A stretch of DNA of 64,000 bases from Planctomycetota bacterium (GTDB taxonomy: Bacteria > Planctomycetota > UBA1135 > UBA2386): positions 1 to 64,000 of the forward strand of contig JADLFX010000085.1 in NCBI GenBank assembly GCA_020849665.1, given 5' to 3'. Below the pieces are notes generated by a model. It did not search any database. It saw only the letters and a list, made by a program, of their open reading frames with translations, and was not told the origin of the DNA. The translations under genes and the position numbers were made by a program. Below, in pieces: positions 1,087 through 61,145 of this stretch. The stretch's first letter is position 1; the number at the start of each line of letters is the position of its first letter.

Positions 1087-7118
<6,032 letters not shown>

Positions 7119-7152: not shown

Positions 7153-7893
7153 CTAGGCCAGCGCCACGACCCGCGAGCGCAGCGCGCCGTCGGGCTCCAG
7201 CTCGAGGACGCGGTACGCCGGCCGCCAGGAGGCCTTGCCCGGCAGCCACGCACGCGGCGCGAACTGGTAGGCGGTGGACGGCGAGGTGAGTACCGGCACG
7301 CCGCCGAACGCGCCCTCGTGCGGCTGGTGGACGTGCCCGCACACGATCGCGCGCACACGGCTGCCGCGCACGGCGCTCTCGAGGCGGCGCCGGTCCCGGG
7401 GCAGGTCCTTGTCGAGCCACCAGGTCCCCACGCGGATCGGAGGGTGGTGGACGAACACCAGCACCGGCGCGCCCGCCTCCCGCACCCGCGCGGCGAACCA
7501 CGCGAGCTGGACGCGCCCGAAGGCGCCGTGCACGAAGGGCCGGCGCACCGAGTCGAGGCCGAGCAGACGCCAGCCGCGGCAATCCAGTTCGAACGCCGCC
7601 GCCGGCCCCACGCGCTCCAGCAGGTCGCCGAACTCCGCGAGCAGCATCCGCCGGGAGTCGTGGTTGCCGGGCAGGACCCGCAGGCGTCCCTGGTACGCGC
7701 CGAGGGCCTCGCGCAAGCGCGCGTAGGACGCCGCGCGCCGGCGCGCGACCAGATCCCCGGTGAGCACGAGCAGGTCGGGGGTGGCTTCGTGCCTTCCGAG
7801 GTGCTCGAGGACGCGGCGCAGGTTGGCCCACGCGGGCGCGGCGGCGTCCGGGGGCAGGTGCAGGTCGGTGAGCTGGACGATGCGCAGGGTCAC
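7153..7893 (-). CDS. calcineurin-like metallophosphoesterase (CpdA-like)
   Basis: Metallophosphoesterase of 246 residues with the complete dimetal motif set in order: QLTDLHLPP, LTGDLVARR, LPGNHDSRR, FVHHPP and CGHVHQPH. The order and size match class III cyclic-nucleotide phosphodiesterase/CpdA-type enzymes, but the substrate cannot be read from the sequence. No signal peptide is seen. GTG 7893 is chosen because the protein then starts directly before the first beta strand; a GTG at 7944 would add 17 Arg-rich residues. A TAGTGT box lies at 7907-7912. A diverged partial copy of this gene forms half of the chimera at 9987-10529. Confidence 0.9.
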   Translation of the reverse strand: MTLRIVQLTDLHLPPDAAAPAWANLRRVLEHLGRHEATPDLLVLTGDLVARRRAASYARLREALGAYQGRLRVLPGNHDSRRMLLAEFGDLLERVGPAAAFELDCRGWRLLGLDSVRRPFVHGAFGRVQLAWFAARVREAGAPVLVFVHHPPIRVGTWWLDKDLPRDRRRLESAVRGSRVRAIVCGHVHQPHEGAFGGVPVLTSPSTAYQFAPRAWLPGKASWRPAYRVLELEPDGALRSRVVALA

Positions 7894-7906
7894 GTCGATC
7901 CGCGGG

Positions 7907-7977: not shown

Positions 7978-8358
7978 TCACACGGGTCGGTCGCCGCGGC
8001 GCCAGTCCTTCCAGCGGCCGTGCCACCGGAACAGCGCCGCGAGCATGCCGTGGGCGACGGCCCGCAGCGGGGGCACGCGGTCCGCGACCTTGCCCAACGC
8101 GTCCGCCAGCCGGTAGCGCATCGTGTCGTGGCGCAGGCGGCGCGCGGCGGCGACCGGGACCTATCAGTGATCCGGCCGCCGGCCCAGCGCGGCGAGGAGG
8201 GCCCCGATGCCCCATCCCTGGGCGAGGTTGGTCAGCATGGCCTTCTCGTCCGCGCCGTCACCCGGCGGCAGGTGGCGCTCGATCAGGAGGCCGAGGAGCG
8301 CCCACGCACGGCAGGGTGGCGGCAGCGGCCCATGGCCGCTGCCGCGCAGCACATCCAC
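7978..8358 (-). pseudogene. possible gene remnant with a double stop
   Basis: One minus-strand frame reads through 8358-8164 (including TNLAQGWGIGALLAALGRR), meets TGA and TAG back to back at 8166-8161, and continues in the same frame through 8160-7978 (including YRLADALGKVADRVPPL and HGRWKDWRRGD). Both pieces have normal amino-acid composition rather than the Arg/Pro-rich look of the shadow frames here. I do not recognise the family. It sits between the metallophosphoesterase and LamG genes, a zone that also holds a chimeric gene, so decay of a former gene is plausible. Two unrelated chance frames remain possible. Confidence 0.3.
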
Positions 8359-9510: not shown

Positions 9511-9986
9511 GGTGGTTCCTGTCAGAAGGGAGAGAGAAGCGTGCAGGCTGTAGTGGGCGCTGGAGCCTGTCAACGCCTCCACCTCCGGGATCCGGCGGCG
9601 TGCGCACCTCGGGCATACTCCCGAGAGCAATCGGTGTCGCCCCTCTGCCGGAACGCTTGCACTGGCGGCGGATCTGGAGGGCCGGCTGCGGCGCATGCAG
9701 ACCTCGCGCGCTGGGTTCCGGTCCCAGGAGGATGCCGCATGCACGCCCGACCCCGCAGGCTTCCAGCTCGCCGGCGCAAGGCACCGGGATCGGCGGGCCA
9801 CCGGGAGTTGCAGGGCAATGCGATCCGGTGGCGCCAGGGTTCATGCACAACTGCCCCGCAGCCGTCCACGACCCACCGTGGCCCGGATCACCGGACGGCG
9901 GGAACCGACCGGGACCGGGGCGCGAAGCCCCACCGGCGCGCCGGCCTCGTCGGAGAGGGAGATTCTGCGCGCCGGGGCCGCGCTGC
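9511..9986. other. 476-base region without a gene
   Basis: It holds the LamG promoter candidate and one small inverted repeat, CTCGGG-CATACT-CCCGAG at 9608-9625, which could be an operator. Open frames here are compositionally unlike real genes. Beyond this I see nothing. Confidence 0.35.
9547..9573 (-). promoter_or_regulatory. sigma70-type promoter candidate for the LamG gene
   Basis: On the minus strand a perfect TTGACA (9573-9568) is followed after 15 bases by TACAGC (9552-9547). Transcription would start near 9540, giving a leader of about 30 bases that includes AGGAACCACC before the ATG. The spacer is a little short and the -10 is weak, but the -35 stands out in such G+C-rich sequence. 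Confidence 0.45.
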
Positions 9987-10529
9987 CTATGACCCGCCCT
10001 GCCGCTCGGGCTCGCGCGCCTCGTCCTCCGGTCCGGAGTTCCGCTGGTCTCGTGCCCGGCGCAGGTGCCGGTAGCCGACCAGCTTCTTCGAGGACCCGTC
10101 CCGGAGCCGCAGGCCCAGGGAGCGCAGGCTGCCGAGCAGGGTCATCGGCCGCACCTGCTGGAACATGGGGTCGGACTTGTGGCAGCGCTCGAGGTTGTCG
10201 TCGGGGATCCGCGGACCGAGGTGGTGGAGGAGGTGGAAGCCGATGTTGCCGGGGAACCACTGCGGCAGCCGCCGGGAGTCGCAGTTGCCGGGCAGGACGC
10301 CCAGGCGTCCCTCGCACGCGACGAGGACCTCGCGCAGGCGTGCGGAGGTCGGCGCGCGCCCGTACGCGACCAGGTCCCCGGTCCACATGAGCAGGTCGGG
10401 CCTGGGCTCACGCGTGCGCACGTGCTCGAGGCCCCAGTGCACGCTGACCAACGCCGCCCGCATACGGTGCGGGCGCAAGCGCAGGTCGGTGCGCTGGACG
10501 ACGCGGAGGACCACGGCGACCCACGACAC
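9987..10529 (-). pseudogene. chimeric gene: metallophosphoesterase front joined to desaturase tail
   Basis: A 180-codon frame made of two local genes. Residues 1-82 follow the N-terminus of the 7153-7893 phosphoesterase (LRVVQRTDLRLRP, LLMWTGDLVA, VLPGNCDSRR). Residues from about 88 follow the C-terminus of the 13358-14485 desaturase (QWFPGNIGF, NLERCHKSDPMF, SKKLVGYRHLRR). The stretch 10061-10263 differs from 13429-13631 at only about 11 bases with no gaps by eye; the phosphoesterase part is more diverged. Catalytic residues are damaged: TDLH is TDLR and GNHD is GNCD, and only the last desaturase His box region remains, as HLLHH. The frame is nevertheless intact across the junction. Probably a non-functional product of recombination; a short expressed protein is possible. 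Confidence 0.8.
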
Positions 10530-13357: not shown

Positions 13358-14485
13358 TCAACCCTGCGGCGATTCCGACTTGCGTGCCGCCTCGCGATCC
13401 TCCACCCGGCGCTCCTTGGCCACGCGCCGCAGGTGCCGGTAGCCGACCAGCTTCTTCGAGGACTCGTCCCAGAGCCGCAGGCCCAGGGAGCGCAGGCTGC
13501 CGAGCAGGGTCATCGGCCGCACCTCCTGAAACATCGGGTCGGACTTGTGGCAGCGCTCGAGGTTGTAGTTGGGGATCCGCGGACTGAGGTGGTGGATGTG
13601 GTGGAAGCCGATGTTGCCGGAGAACCACTGCAGCACCCGCGGCAGCTTGTAGAACGAGGAACCCTGCAGCGCCGCCGCGGCGTAGTCCCAGTTCTCGCCG
13701 CGCTCCCAGTAGGCGTCCTCGAACTGGTGCTGCAGGTAGAAGAGCCAGACGCCCGCGGCGCCGGCCACCATCAGGATCGTCAGCTGGATCAGGAGGTACG
13801 GCAGCACGCCGAAGAGCGTGGCCATCCCCACCACCTTGAGCAGTACCGCGAGGTTCATCCACCACACGGAGACCCGCTCGTGCTCCTTGGCCCCCTTCCG
13901 GGGGATCCTCTGCAGGACCAGGAAGAGCACCAGAGGCGCGATCACGAAGAGCACCACCGGATTGCGCGCCAGCCGGTAGCTGAACCGCTTCCAGCGCGAG
14001 GCCTGCAGGTACTCCTCGACGGTCATCGTCCAGATGTCGCCGATGCCCCGGCGATCGAGGTCGCCCGTGGCGCCATGGTGGATCGCGTGCTCTCCGCGCC
14101 AGTGGTAGTAGGGCGTGAACGTGAGCAGGCCGGTGAGGAAGCCCCACACGTCGTTGGCGATGCGCGACGCGTAGAACGAGCCGTGGCCGCAGTCGTGGAA
14201 GATGATGAACACACGCACCAGCAGCCCGCCCGCGAGGACCGCCAGGGGGATCGTGAGCCACCACGAGACGCCGAGGCTGAAGTAGATCAACACCCACACG
14301 GCGAGGTACGCCCCCACCGTGTCGAGGATCTGCCACGTGGCACGCCCGGCGTGGGGCTGCTGGTACCTGGCCACGACGGCCTTCCATGCGGCGGCGGCAT
14401 CCCGCCGGCGCGCGGCGTCGTCCCCGGCCTCGGAGGTCTGGCGATCCAGTTCGGGCGGAGAGTCCTTCGGATCGCTGGTCGGCAT
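13358..14485 (-). CDS. membrane fatty acid desaturase (delta-12/omega-6 type)
   Basis: Integral-membrane di-iron desaturase, 375 residues. The three His clusters are HDCGH (near residue 104), HAIHH (near 141) and HHIHH (near 297), in the spacing of the DesA/omega-6 group. Hydrophobic segments at about 60-105 and 190-255 would cross the membrane. The enzyme would introduce a double bond into acyl chains. ATG 14485 is preceded by a TAGGAT box only 11 bases upstream and no Shine-Dalgarno. The last 200 bases of the gene are duplicated in the chimera at 9987-10529. Family is secure; regioselectivity is not. Confidence 0.92.
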   Translation of the reverse strand: MPTSDPKDSPPELDRQTSEAGDDAARRRDAAAAWKAVVARYQQPHAGRATWQILDTVGAYLAVWVLIYFSLGVSWWLTIPLAVLAGGLLVRVFIIFHDCGHGSFYASRIANDVWGFLTGLLTFTPYYHWRGEHAIHHGATGDLDRRGIGDIWTMTVEEYLQASRWKRFSYRLARNPVVLFVIAPLVLFLVLQRIPRKGAKEHERVSVWWMNLAVLLKVVGMATLFGVLPYLLIQLTILMVAGAAGVWLFYLQHQFEDAYWERGENWDYAAAALQGSSFYKLPRVLQWFSGNIGFHHIHHLSPRIPNYNLERCHKSDPMFQEVRPMTLLGSLRSLGLRLWDESSKKLVGYRHLRRVAKERRVEDREAARKSESPQG

Positions 14486-57868: not shown

Positions 57869-57922
57869 GCCGGTACGGCTCACTCCAGGAACCTTCCGTT
57901 CCGCGCGCGGGTCACCGGCTGG

Positions 57923-58900
57923 TCACTGCACCGTCACGCGCAGTGCGTTGGTCATCGTGATCGGCGTCGGGCGGCCGCTGTTCACGTCCAGGATCGCGAC
58001 CTGGCACTGGAACTGGACGCCGGCGAGGCCCGGGCTGTTCGGGATGGGCATCGGGAACGAACCCGTGGCGGAGGCACGCTCCGGATCGCCCGCGGTGGTC
58101 GTGCCGTTGAACACGATCACATTGGCCGGGTCGACGAGCAGGTTGCAGCCGCCCGTGATCCCCACGACCGCGAGGTCCAGGGTGAAGTTGCTGGGGCCGT
58201 TCACCAGCAGGGCCATGCCCGCGCTCGACGGCACGCTGAAGAGCTCGAAGCCGAATGCCGCGTTGCCGCGCTGCGGGGCCTGCTTCGCGCCGAACACCGG
58301 CACGTTCTCGTAGCTGCCCGCGCAGGCGCTGCCTACCGGCACCACGCCGGGGGCGTTGACGTAGAGGCGCACCGCCGTGCCCTGCACCGCCGCGCTGTTG
58401 AAGGCCGCGAAGCCCCAGATGTCGCCCGAGGTGCCGCTGCCGTTGGAGGTGAGCAGCGTGGCGTACATCTCGATCAGGCCGGGATTGGTGCTGGCCGTGT
58501 AGCCGTACGTCCACGAGCGGTTGTGGCCGGAGTTGCGGCTGTGGGTGATGGCGTCCGACCGCGAGGTGAGCCTGGAGTTCGTCCCGGCGGTGAACGCGCC
58601 CGAGCTCACGTCGCAGGTGAAGCCACCGCGCAGCTGGGCATCCGCGACGCCGCCGGTGGCGGAGAGCGTGACCGAGAGGGACTGGCCCGGGGTGAGGGCG
58701 CGCGCCGTCGGCGCCAGCTTCACCTTGAGGCTGTTGGCGCCCTGCGTGCCCGAGTGGCAGTTGCCGCAGGACGGACGCGCCTTGGTGAGGTTCGCCACGC
58801 CGACCGTGTAGGGATCGACGCCGCTGCCGTACGAGTAGAGCGAGGAGGCGAGGAGTGCGGCCAGCGGTACGCCGGCGAGGAGATAGGTGCGTGCGGACAT
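57923..58900 (-). CDS. secreted single-haem-motif protein, paralogue 1 (choice-of-anchor V type)
   Basis: Protein of 325 residues with a signal peptide/anchor (about 1-24). A CxxCH motif, CGNCH at 45-49, follows GVANLTKARPS. The next part (60-165) is beta-rich with RGGFTCDVSSGAFTAG and SWTYGYTAS, and the C-terminus (about 215-325) is the shared module ending GRPTPITMTNALRVTVQ. The CxxCH would bind haem c if the cell has a cytochrome c assembly system, which is not in this window. Same length as its upstream paralogue (325 residues); third copy further upstream. GGAG precedes the ATG. Function unknown; electron transfer or metal binding at the surface is inferred. Confidence 0.85.
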   Translation of the reverse strand: MSARTYLLAGVPLAALLASSLYSYGSGVDPYTVGVANLTKARPSCGNCHSGTQGANSLKVKLAPTARALTPGQSLSVTLSATGGVADAQLRGGFTCDVSSGAFTAGTNSRLTSRSDAITHSRNSGHNRSWTYGYTASTNPGLIEMYATLLTSNGSGTSGDIWGFAAFNSAAVQGTAVRLYVNAPGVVPVGSACAGSYENVPVFGAKQAPQRGNAAFGFELFSVPSSAGMALLVNGPSNFTLDLAVVGITGGCNLLVDPANVIVFNGTTTAGDPERASATGSFPMPIPNSPGLAGVQFQCQVAILDVNSGRPTPITMTNALRVTVQ

Positions 58901-59133
58901 GAGGGACTCCGGTGGGGCAGGTCCGGAACGACGACCTCCACGCAACTCCAGGCAGATCCGGACCAACGAGGTTGGTGTCCGCAACGCCGGGGCACCCGCC
59001 TCGGTGACGCTCGGACACCTCGGGCTGCGAATGCAAGCCTCGGCCGCGAATTGCCGCCGTCGCGCGCGAGAAGCGAAGCCCTGACCAAGACCTCACGCGA
59101 GAGTGAAAGTGCGAAGCGCCGCGCCGCGGCCGA

Positions 59134-60111
59134 TCACTGCACCGTCACGCGCAGGCCGTTGGTCATCGTGATCGGGGTCGGGCGGCCGCTCGCGAGGTCG
59201 AGGATCGCGGCCTGCACGACGAGGACGTTCCCGAGCACGCGCGAGTCGTTGGGGATCGGCAGCGGGAAGTTCGCCGTGGCCGTGGCACGCTGCGCGTCGC
59301 CGGTGCCCGAGAGACCGTTCAGCACCACGAGGTTCACGGGATCCACGTGGAGGGTGCAGCCGGCCATGCCGATCGGCCCGAGTTCGATCGGCGTGAAGTT
59401 CGTGGGAGCGTTGAGCAGCAGCGCCACGCCGGTGCCGGGCGGCAGGCCATGCGCCTCGACGGCGAAGGCCTGGTTGCCGACCTGCGGCACCTGCCGAGCC
59501 CCCAGGACCGGGACGTTGCCGAAGCCGCCGGCACAGGCGGTGCCCACCGGTTGCACCCCTTGTGCGTTCACATAGAGGCGCACGGGGGTCGGGACCGTGG
59601 CGGACGCCTGGAAGCCGTGGAAGCCCCAGATGTCGCCGCTGTTGAAGCCGTCGCCGTTGACCGTGTTCACCGTCACGAACATCTCCACGGGCCCGGGCGA
59701 GAGCGGGGCCACGTAGCCGTAGGTCCAGGACCTGCCCGGTGTGCGCTGCGAGTGGCTGATGGCGTCGGGGCGGATCGCGACGCGGGTGTTGGCCCCGGCG
59801 GTGAACGTGCCGGCGGTCACATCCGAGGAGAACCCGCCGCGCAGCTGCGGGTCCGTCGTGCCGCCGGTCGCCGAGGTCGTGATCGAGATGGCCTGCCCTG
59901 GCGCAAGCGAGTGCGCCGAGAGGTCGACGCGCACCCGGAGGTTGTTCTGCCCCTGGACGCCGAGGTGGCAGCCGCCGCACGAGGGCAGGGCCCGGTTCAG
60001 GTTGGCGATCCCGCTGCTGAGCGGATCGATGCCGGCGCTGAACGAGTGCAAGGCCGAGGCCAGCAGGATCGCGGCGGGTACGGAGAGGACGACGTGGCTC
60101 GCTCTGGACAT
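59134..60111 (-). CDS. secreted single-haem-motif protein, paralogue 2
   Basis: Protein of 325 residues, co-linear with its neighbour along its length. Signal segment about 1-24; haem motif CGGCH at 45-49; RGGFSSDVTAGTFTAG; SWTYGYVAPLSPG; and a C-terminus ending GRPTPITMTNGLRVTVQ. The spacing of Cys45 to the signal is identical to paralogue 1, showing a recent common origin. The 233 bases between the two genes hold no other gene, so each may have its own promoter. The residues between strands differ much more than the motifs, so the copies are not fresh duplicates. Confidence 0.85.
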   Translation of the reverse strand: MSRASHVVLSVPAAILLASALHSFSAGIDPLSSGIANLNRALPSCGGCHLGVQGQNNLRVRVDLSAHSLAPGQAISITTSATGGTTDPQLRGGFSSDVTAGTFTAGANTRVAIRPDAISHSQRTPGRSWTYGYVAPLSPGPVEMFVTVNTVNGDGFNSGDIWGFHGFQASATVPTPVRLYVNAQGVQPVGTACAGGFGNVPVLGARQVPQVGNQAFAVEAHGLPPGTGVALLLNAPTNFTPIELGPIGMAGCTLHVDPVNLVVLNGLSGTGDAQRATATANFPLPIPNDSRVLGNVLVVQAAILDLASGRPTPITMTNGLRVTVQ

Positions 60112-60158
60112 CGAACGGGTGGGTGCGGGCGCTGCGGGCGGGCCGGCCCTGGCGCGAA

Positions 60159-61145
60159 CTACTGGATCGTGACCTCGAGCCCGTTGGTCATCGTGATCGG
60201 GGTCGGGCGGCCGTTGTTGGTGTCCAGGATGGCCACCTGGAACATCAGCTTCGCGCCCCGCAGGTTGGGATCGTTGGGCAGCGGCAGCGGGATCGTCGCG
60301 GCGCCTTCGGCGCGGAACAGGTCGCCGTTGCTGGTGGTGCCGGGGAGCGCCAGCGAGTTGGTGGGATCCACGAGCAGCGTGCACCCGGTGATCCCGATCA
60401 GGCCGAGGTCGAGCCCGGCGAAGGCGGTCTTGGCATTGAGCAGCATCACGAAGGGGGCGGTCGGCGCCGCGCCGAAGAGCTCGAACGCGAATGCGGCGTT
60501 GCCCACGGTCGGCGTGGCCTTGCTGCCGAACACCGGATACTGGCCCCAGCTCCCGACGCACGCGGCGCCCGCCGCGGCCACGCCCACGGCGTTCACGTAC
60601 AGGCGCACGGGCGTGCAGAACGCCGAAGCGGCGTTGAAGCCGTGGAAGGCCCAGTAGTCCCCGAGGGTCGTGCCCGAACCGTCGACGGCGTTCACCACGG
60701 TGTAGAGCTCCACCAGCCCGGGCGCGGCCGGCGCCGTGTAGCCGTAGGTCCAGGTGCGGTTGCTCAACGCGGTGTTGTGGGTGAGGAAGCGCCCGTTGGC
60801 CGAGGCGCGGGCATTGCTGCCCGGACTCAGCGTGCCCGCGGAGGCCTCCACCACGAATCCGCCGCGCGTGCCCGCGGGTCCCCCGGCGGCCTGCGTGGTG
60901 GCCTGGATCGCCTCCCCCAGGTCGAGGACGCGCTTGGTCGGCGTGAGCGACACCTTCAGGTTCAGCCCGCCCGGAAAGGCCCGATGACACTGCCCGCACG
61001 CGGGTGCCTGTCGGGTGACGTCGGCGGGGACGTTGCCCGAGCCCTGGTTGTCGCCCGGGAGCGCACCGGAGCTGTACGAGTACACGGCGCTGGTCGCGCC
61101 GACGGCTGCGGCGGCGGCCAGGAGAGAGAGGGTCAGGAGGCGCAT
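60159..61145 (-). CDS. secreted single-haem-motif protein, paralogue 3
   Basis: Protein of 328 residues. Signal peptide about 1-20; haem motif CGQCH at 50-54 in QAPACGQCHRAFPGG; then RGGFVVEASAGTLSPG, RTWTYGYTAPAAPG and GDYWAFHGF; C-terminus ending GRPTPITMTNGLEVTIQ. It is the most diverged of the three: its haem motif sits five residues further in, and its ending has EVTIQ. Only 47 bases separate it from paralogue 2, so these two could share a transcript. A TACTCT box about 18 bases upstream of the ATG is a weak -10 candidate. Confidence 0.85.
   Translation of the reverse strand: MRLLTLSLLAAAAAVGATSAVYSYSSGALPGDNQGSGNVPADVTRQAPACGQCHRAFPGGLNLKVSLTPTKRVLDLGEAIQATTQAAGGPAGTRGGFVVEASAGTLSPGSNARASANGRFLTHNTALSNRTWTYGYTAPAAPGLVELYTVVNAVDGSGTTLGDYWAFHGFNAASAFCTPVRLYVNAVGVAAAGAACVGSWGQYPVFGSKATPTVGNAAFAFELFGAAPTAPFVMLLNAKTAFAGLDLGLIGITGCTLLVDPTNSLALPGTTSNGDLFRAEGAATIPLPLPNDPNLRGAKLMFQVAILDTNNGRPTPITMTNGLEVTIQ

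Follow-up and report, generated by a model that had tools for sequence, protein, structure and literature searches.

The stretch of DNA analyzed (the window, 64,000 bases) corresponds to bases 1 to 64000 of a 128-kb contig that belongs to a 5.24-Mb draft MAG (122 contigs, 94.8% complete). A phosphoesterase gene (7153), a chimeric open frame (9987), and a desaturase gene (13358) lie in this order on the minus strand. According to Pfam, the genes flanking the chimera encode a laminin-G-type protein on its left and a VPS10/BNR protein on its right. The features of the locus are as follows.

9987..10529, minus strand: chimeric pseudogene, whose open frame has 180 codons and ends with TAG at 9987-9989
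10262..10525, minus strand: phosphoesterase-derived 5' half of the chimera, copy of 7641-7904 with 76.6% identity
10057..10272, minus strand: desaturase-derived 3' half of the chimera, copy of 13425-13640 with 93.5% identity
10262..10272, no strand assigned: joint of the chimera; GCAGCA[C/T]CCGC in the parents (10 of 11 bases alike), GCGGCAGCCGC in the chimera today
9987..10056, minus strand: tail of the chimera frame; its match to the end of the desaturase gene (13358-13424) is strongly diverged and doubtful
7153..7893, minus strand: parent 1, intact metallophosphoesterase (PF00149), metal-site motifs retained
13358..14485, minus strand: parent 2, intact fatty acid desaturase (PF00487), assigned by Pfam
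7978..8304, minus strand: glycosyltransferase remnant, a C-terminal piece with two in-frame stops; intact counterpart in the relative G006

The two stops of the glycosyltransferase remnant, TGA and TAG, are adjacent, and the remnant shares 56% identity with the end of the intact G006 gene; no intact close copy was found in its own genome. With such a remnant nearby, the stretch has the character of a small gene graveyard. Self-comparison of the window also revealed three head-to-tail stretches at 57916-60762 that are about 66 to 69% alike and represent tandem paralogues, as well as a weak internal direct repeat at 5006-5279 (70% over 121 bases).

A sequence-only reading had described the frame as an in-frame chimera of two parents, and the alignments bore this out. 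BLAST matched 10057-10272 to 13425-13640 without gaps (216 bp, 93.5%, 1.6e-91) and 10262-10525 to 7641-7904 (76.6%, 8e-51), so that homology to two intact genes, as in a chimeric pseudogene, is recognizable. Both halves retain the strand and reading frame of their parents. Pfam placed a Metallophos domain at residues 40-98 and an FA_desaturase domain at residues 83-118 of the same frame, the latter with 26.9 bits, just below the curated cut-off of 29.7. The count of about 11 differences in 203 bases made by eye between 10061-10263 and 13429-13631 proved to be exact, without gaps, and the phosphoesterase half is indeed the more diverged of the two. The joint had been placed in sequence shared by both parents, and the partner changes exactly at the shared motif (parental sites 13630-13640 and 7641-7651), at which the codon phase is equal in both parents (CGG GTG CTG versus CGG ATG CTG). 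The assignment of the entire 3' part to the desaturase tail stood for 10057-10272 but not for the last ~22 codons (9987-10056), which have no clear match to the desaturase end and whose resemblance to it is doubtful (p = 0.02 in codon shuffles and 0.26 in residue or base shuffles). Homology to the parents ends at 10057 and 10525, that is, on both sides of the chimera. The genome search detected neither of the chimera fragments elsewhere in the genome. In the flanks, no remainder of the phosphoesterase or the desaturase, no upstream homology, and no homology to the VPS10 end left of the chimera were found beyond chance or near-chance levels; in 9511-10056, the only trace of the phosphoesterase was an 18-base G+C-rich match (p 0.04).

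Taken together, the substitutions show that the chimera is a decaying pseudogene and not a maintained protein, and we assign a probability of about 0.9 to its being a chimeric pseudogene, whatever its origin. The desaturase half differs from its parent at 8, 3, and 4 sites of the first, second, and third codon positions, respectively (4 synonymous and 11 nonsynonymous changed codons), and the phosphoesterase half at 26, 24, and 14 sites (6 synonymous and 41 nonsynonymous). Pairwise omega values of the chimera were 0.32-0.65 and 0.43-0.95, depending on which codons were included and which composition model was used, whereas the functional desaturase and its relatives gave 0.03-0.11 in nearly all comparisons, a set that contains one unreliable fit of 0.001. 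With such omega values and all codon positions altered, purifying selection on the protein is absent, as in chimeric pseudogenes. Ten of the 15 differences in the desaturase half fall on sites at which the seven relatives listed all match the intact gene, and in the tree of this half the branch of the chimera measures 0.082, as compared to 0.001 for the intact desaturase. Intact homologues of the phosphoesterase have 24 invariant N-terminal columns, of which 8 have changed in the phosphoesterase half, two metal ligands among them. That catalytic histidines were lost while the frame was kept, as had been noticed from the sequence, was confirmed by the changes from DLH to DLR, from GNHD to GNCD, and from HHIHH to HLLHH within 180 open codons. 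The chimera is therefore no active metallophosphoesterase (PF00149), an enzyme that needs the metal-binding motifs D-x-H, GD, and GNHD together with histidines near the C terminus, since D-x-H and GNHD are altered and the C-terminal half with its histidines is missing. Nor is it an active fatty acid desaturase (PF00487), which needs membrane helices and three histidine boxes; only the third box region is present, in altered form. Mutagenesis by a diversity-generating retroelement was considered and ruled out, as the changes are not limited to adenines.

Stop codons or frameshifts, which are usual but not obligatory in pseudogenes, are absent from the chimera. In simulations of neutral decay towards an equilibrium G+C of 0.70-0.73, which is near the lower of the local intergenic values (0.71-0.81), the frame remained open with a probability of ~0.75 for the desaturase half and ~0.5 for the phosphoesterase half. 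An open frame is thus expected in ~38% of neutral decays, and its persistence is no evidence of function. Counted over 10056-10271 versus 13424-13639, all nine differences of the desaturase half that alter base composition lead from A/T to G/C (0 in the opposite direction) and its GC3 stays at 0.95, a pattern unexpected for decay towards a G+C content of 0.70-0.73 (p about 0.001-0.02). This drift may reflect G+C-favoring fixation in the absence of coding constraint, or simply too few events. As a minor point, the drift of such a dead desaturase piece bears on what keeps these genomes G+C-rich, although the sample is tiny.

The chimera is, as far as visible, private to its lineage. No genome carried both halves together among 33 others searched in the family and 153 others in the order, and among the GTDB contigs scanned with the chimera protein there was no match carrying both halves. 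The desaturases closest to the parent gene are carried by Planctomycetota MAGs. Synteny in relatives was uninformative, as the genomes with the closest desaturases lack this phosphoesterase and their VPS10 gene does not adjoin the desaturase.

Considering that the frame is open, that its GC3 is high, and that the parental start codon position is kept as GTG, we asked whether the chimera could be a young fusion protein, translated and specific to its lineage, that has taken on a new role with altered selection and is being tried out after a tandem duplication before either a function was fixed or the frame was lost. This is very improbable: the open frame is expected by chance, metal ligands and core motifs are lost, and no other genome examined carries the chimera. 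The retention of GC3 and the lack of G/C-to-A/T changes in the desaturase half, which at first suggested selection for translation, were dropped as a sign of it, because the nearby glycosyltransferase remnant, which contains two stops, has an equally high GC3 of 0.945. An artefact of assembly or binning, for which the fragmentation of the draft MAG into 122 contigs might speak, is hardly credible. The locus lies inside a 128-kb contig, and both halves have many pseudogene-type substitutions of their own at family-invariant sites, none of which would result if the parents had been collapsed or misjoined in assembly.

The phosphoesterase half is approximately threefold more diverged, with Fisher p values of 0.006, 0.00008, and 0.046 at codon positions 1, 2, and 3. 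The sequence-only reading had taken this as a difference in age, a claim that held under equal mutation rates, for which two ages were strongly favored over one (2*delta lnL of 15-24) with neutral substitutions per codon of about 0.2 for the desaturase half and 0.5-0.8 for the phosphoesterase half. Without a clock, the extra divergence could instead be placed on the phosphoesterase branch in most settings (2*delta lnL of 0-8); this would imply that the phosphoesterase gene itself is changing fast, mainly at nonsynonymous sites, while its metal site is kept. Overall, the desaturase half is probably the younger one. The same reading had proposed the plain transfer of a recent desaturase end to an old paralogue, which is unsupported in this form. 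The unequal divergence does not have to be read in this way: the excess could lie on the phosphoesterase branch if no clock is imposed, the donor may have been other than the present gene at 7153-7893, and the geometry fits a tandem-duplication joint. A diverged phosphoesterase donor, or later conversion of the chimera by the intact desaturase, would account for the different ages. A two-step version, in which illegitimate recombination later inserted a 216-bp copy of the desaturase end into an older, already dead phosphoesterase paralogue, would account for the threefold divergence, also under a clock, and for the sharp boundaries that the desaturase block has on either side. We consider it unlikely, since an insertion should leave a phosphoesterase remainder past the block, whose near-complete absence from 9511-10056 calls for an extra deletion, and since the position between the parents with swapped halves is left unexplained. 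Furthermore, divergence in the phosphoesterase half climbs away from the joint, from 6-10 to 15 differences per 44 bases, which makes a simple two-step picture too neat; conversion, misalignment due to an indel, or divergence of the parent itself may be responsible. Conversely, both halves might be of one age if the phosphoesterase half came from a diverged allele, or from a copy that has since been replaced, and not from today's gene; the extra divergence would then predate the fusion. The phosphoesterase is patchy, occurring in 5 of 154 genomes of the order, including the present one, at E <= 1e-25, with only 43-46% identity to the relatives there, and without a clock a single age was not rejected in most settings. 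Such a fusion is nevertheless quite improbable, because a functional donor should contribute mostly synonymous changes whereas the excess is nonsynonymous, and because it is the chimera that lost invariant residues.

The founding event that we infer is a tandem duplication. The chimera has one parent on either side, all three on the minus strand, and its halves are swapped (desaturase tail left, phosphoesterase front right), with short homology at the joint, as in a tandem-duplication joint. This novel joint would have arisen when the phosphoesterase gene recombined illegitimately with the desaturase gene, assisted by microhomology, most likely in a duplication of the interval from 7641, within the phosphoesterase, to 13640, within the desaturase. 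The product would have had the order phosphoesterase - A - [desaturase tail|phosphoesterase front] - A' - desaturase, and subsequent deletion of the redundant genes in between would have led to the present order, with the laminin-G-type and VPS10/BNR genes either as single surviving copies of the doubled interior or as later arrivals. A single gene conversion, with the intact gene 3.4 kb away as donor, probably renewed the desaturase part, giving the 216-bp block a young look next to an older tail, and the frame would have decayed neutrally since. Such a conversion patch fits the sharp inner edge of the block at 10057 about equally well. Three observations weigh against this sequence of events. 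No homology of a larger duplicated block persists past the chimera on either side, and the model consequently needs later deletions ending near the chimera; a conversion patch requires a diverged remainder of the desaturase tail, which is weakly supported by the p values given above; and divergence in the phosphoesterase half increases with distance from the joint. We therefore give the whole scenario of tandem duplication, interior deletions, desaturase conversion, and neutral decay roughly even odds.

The chimera is well documented and ordinary in kind. It offers a clean example of how a local rearrangement produces an in-frame fusion of unrelated neighboring genes, and it illustrates that a long open frame in DNA of 73% G+C is no sign of function. 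Like the bacterial pseudogenes and gene fragments covered by a survey of prokaryotes (PMC522871) and a study of extinction dynamics in Salmonella (PMC2916853), it is decayed, private to one lineage, and free of amino acid constraint. It differs from them in having two parents joined in frame without a stop codon, so that automated annotation could mistake it for a gene, and would likely report one with two domains. In a Salmonella study, all confirmed spontaneous deletions and duplications had short direct homology at their end points (PMC3411829). The chimera shares with these joints a short direct repeat where the rearrangement begins and ends, but it is old and diverged, its duplicated block is gone, and its event is reconstructed. 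Finally, its halves resemble the Metallophos (PF00149) and FA_desaturase (PF00487) enzymes in sequence, whereas each of them lacks the required catalytic residues and most of the domain.
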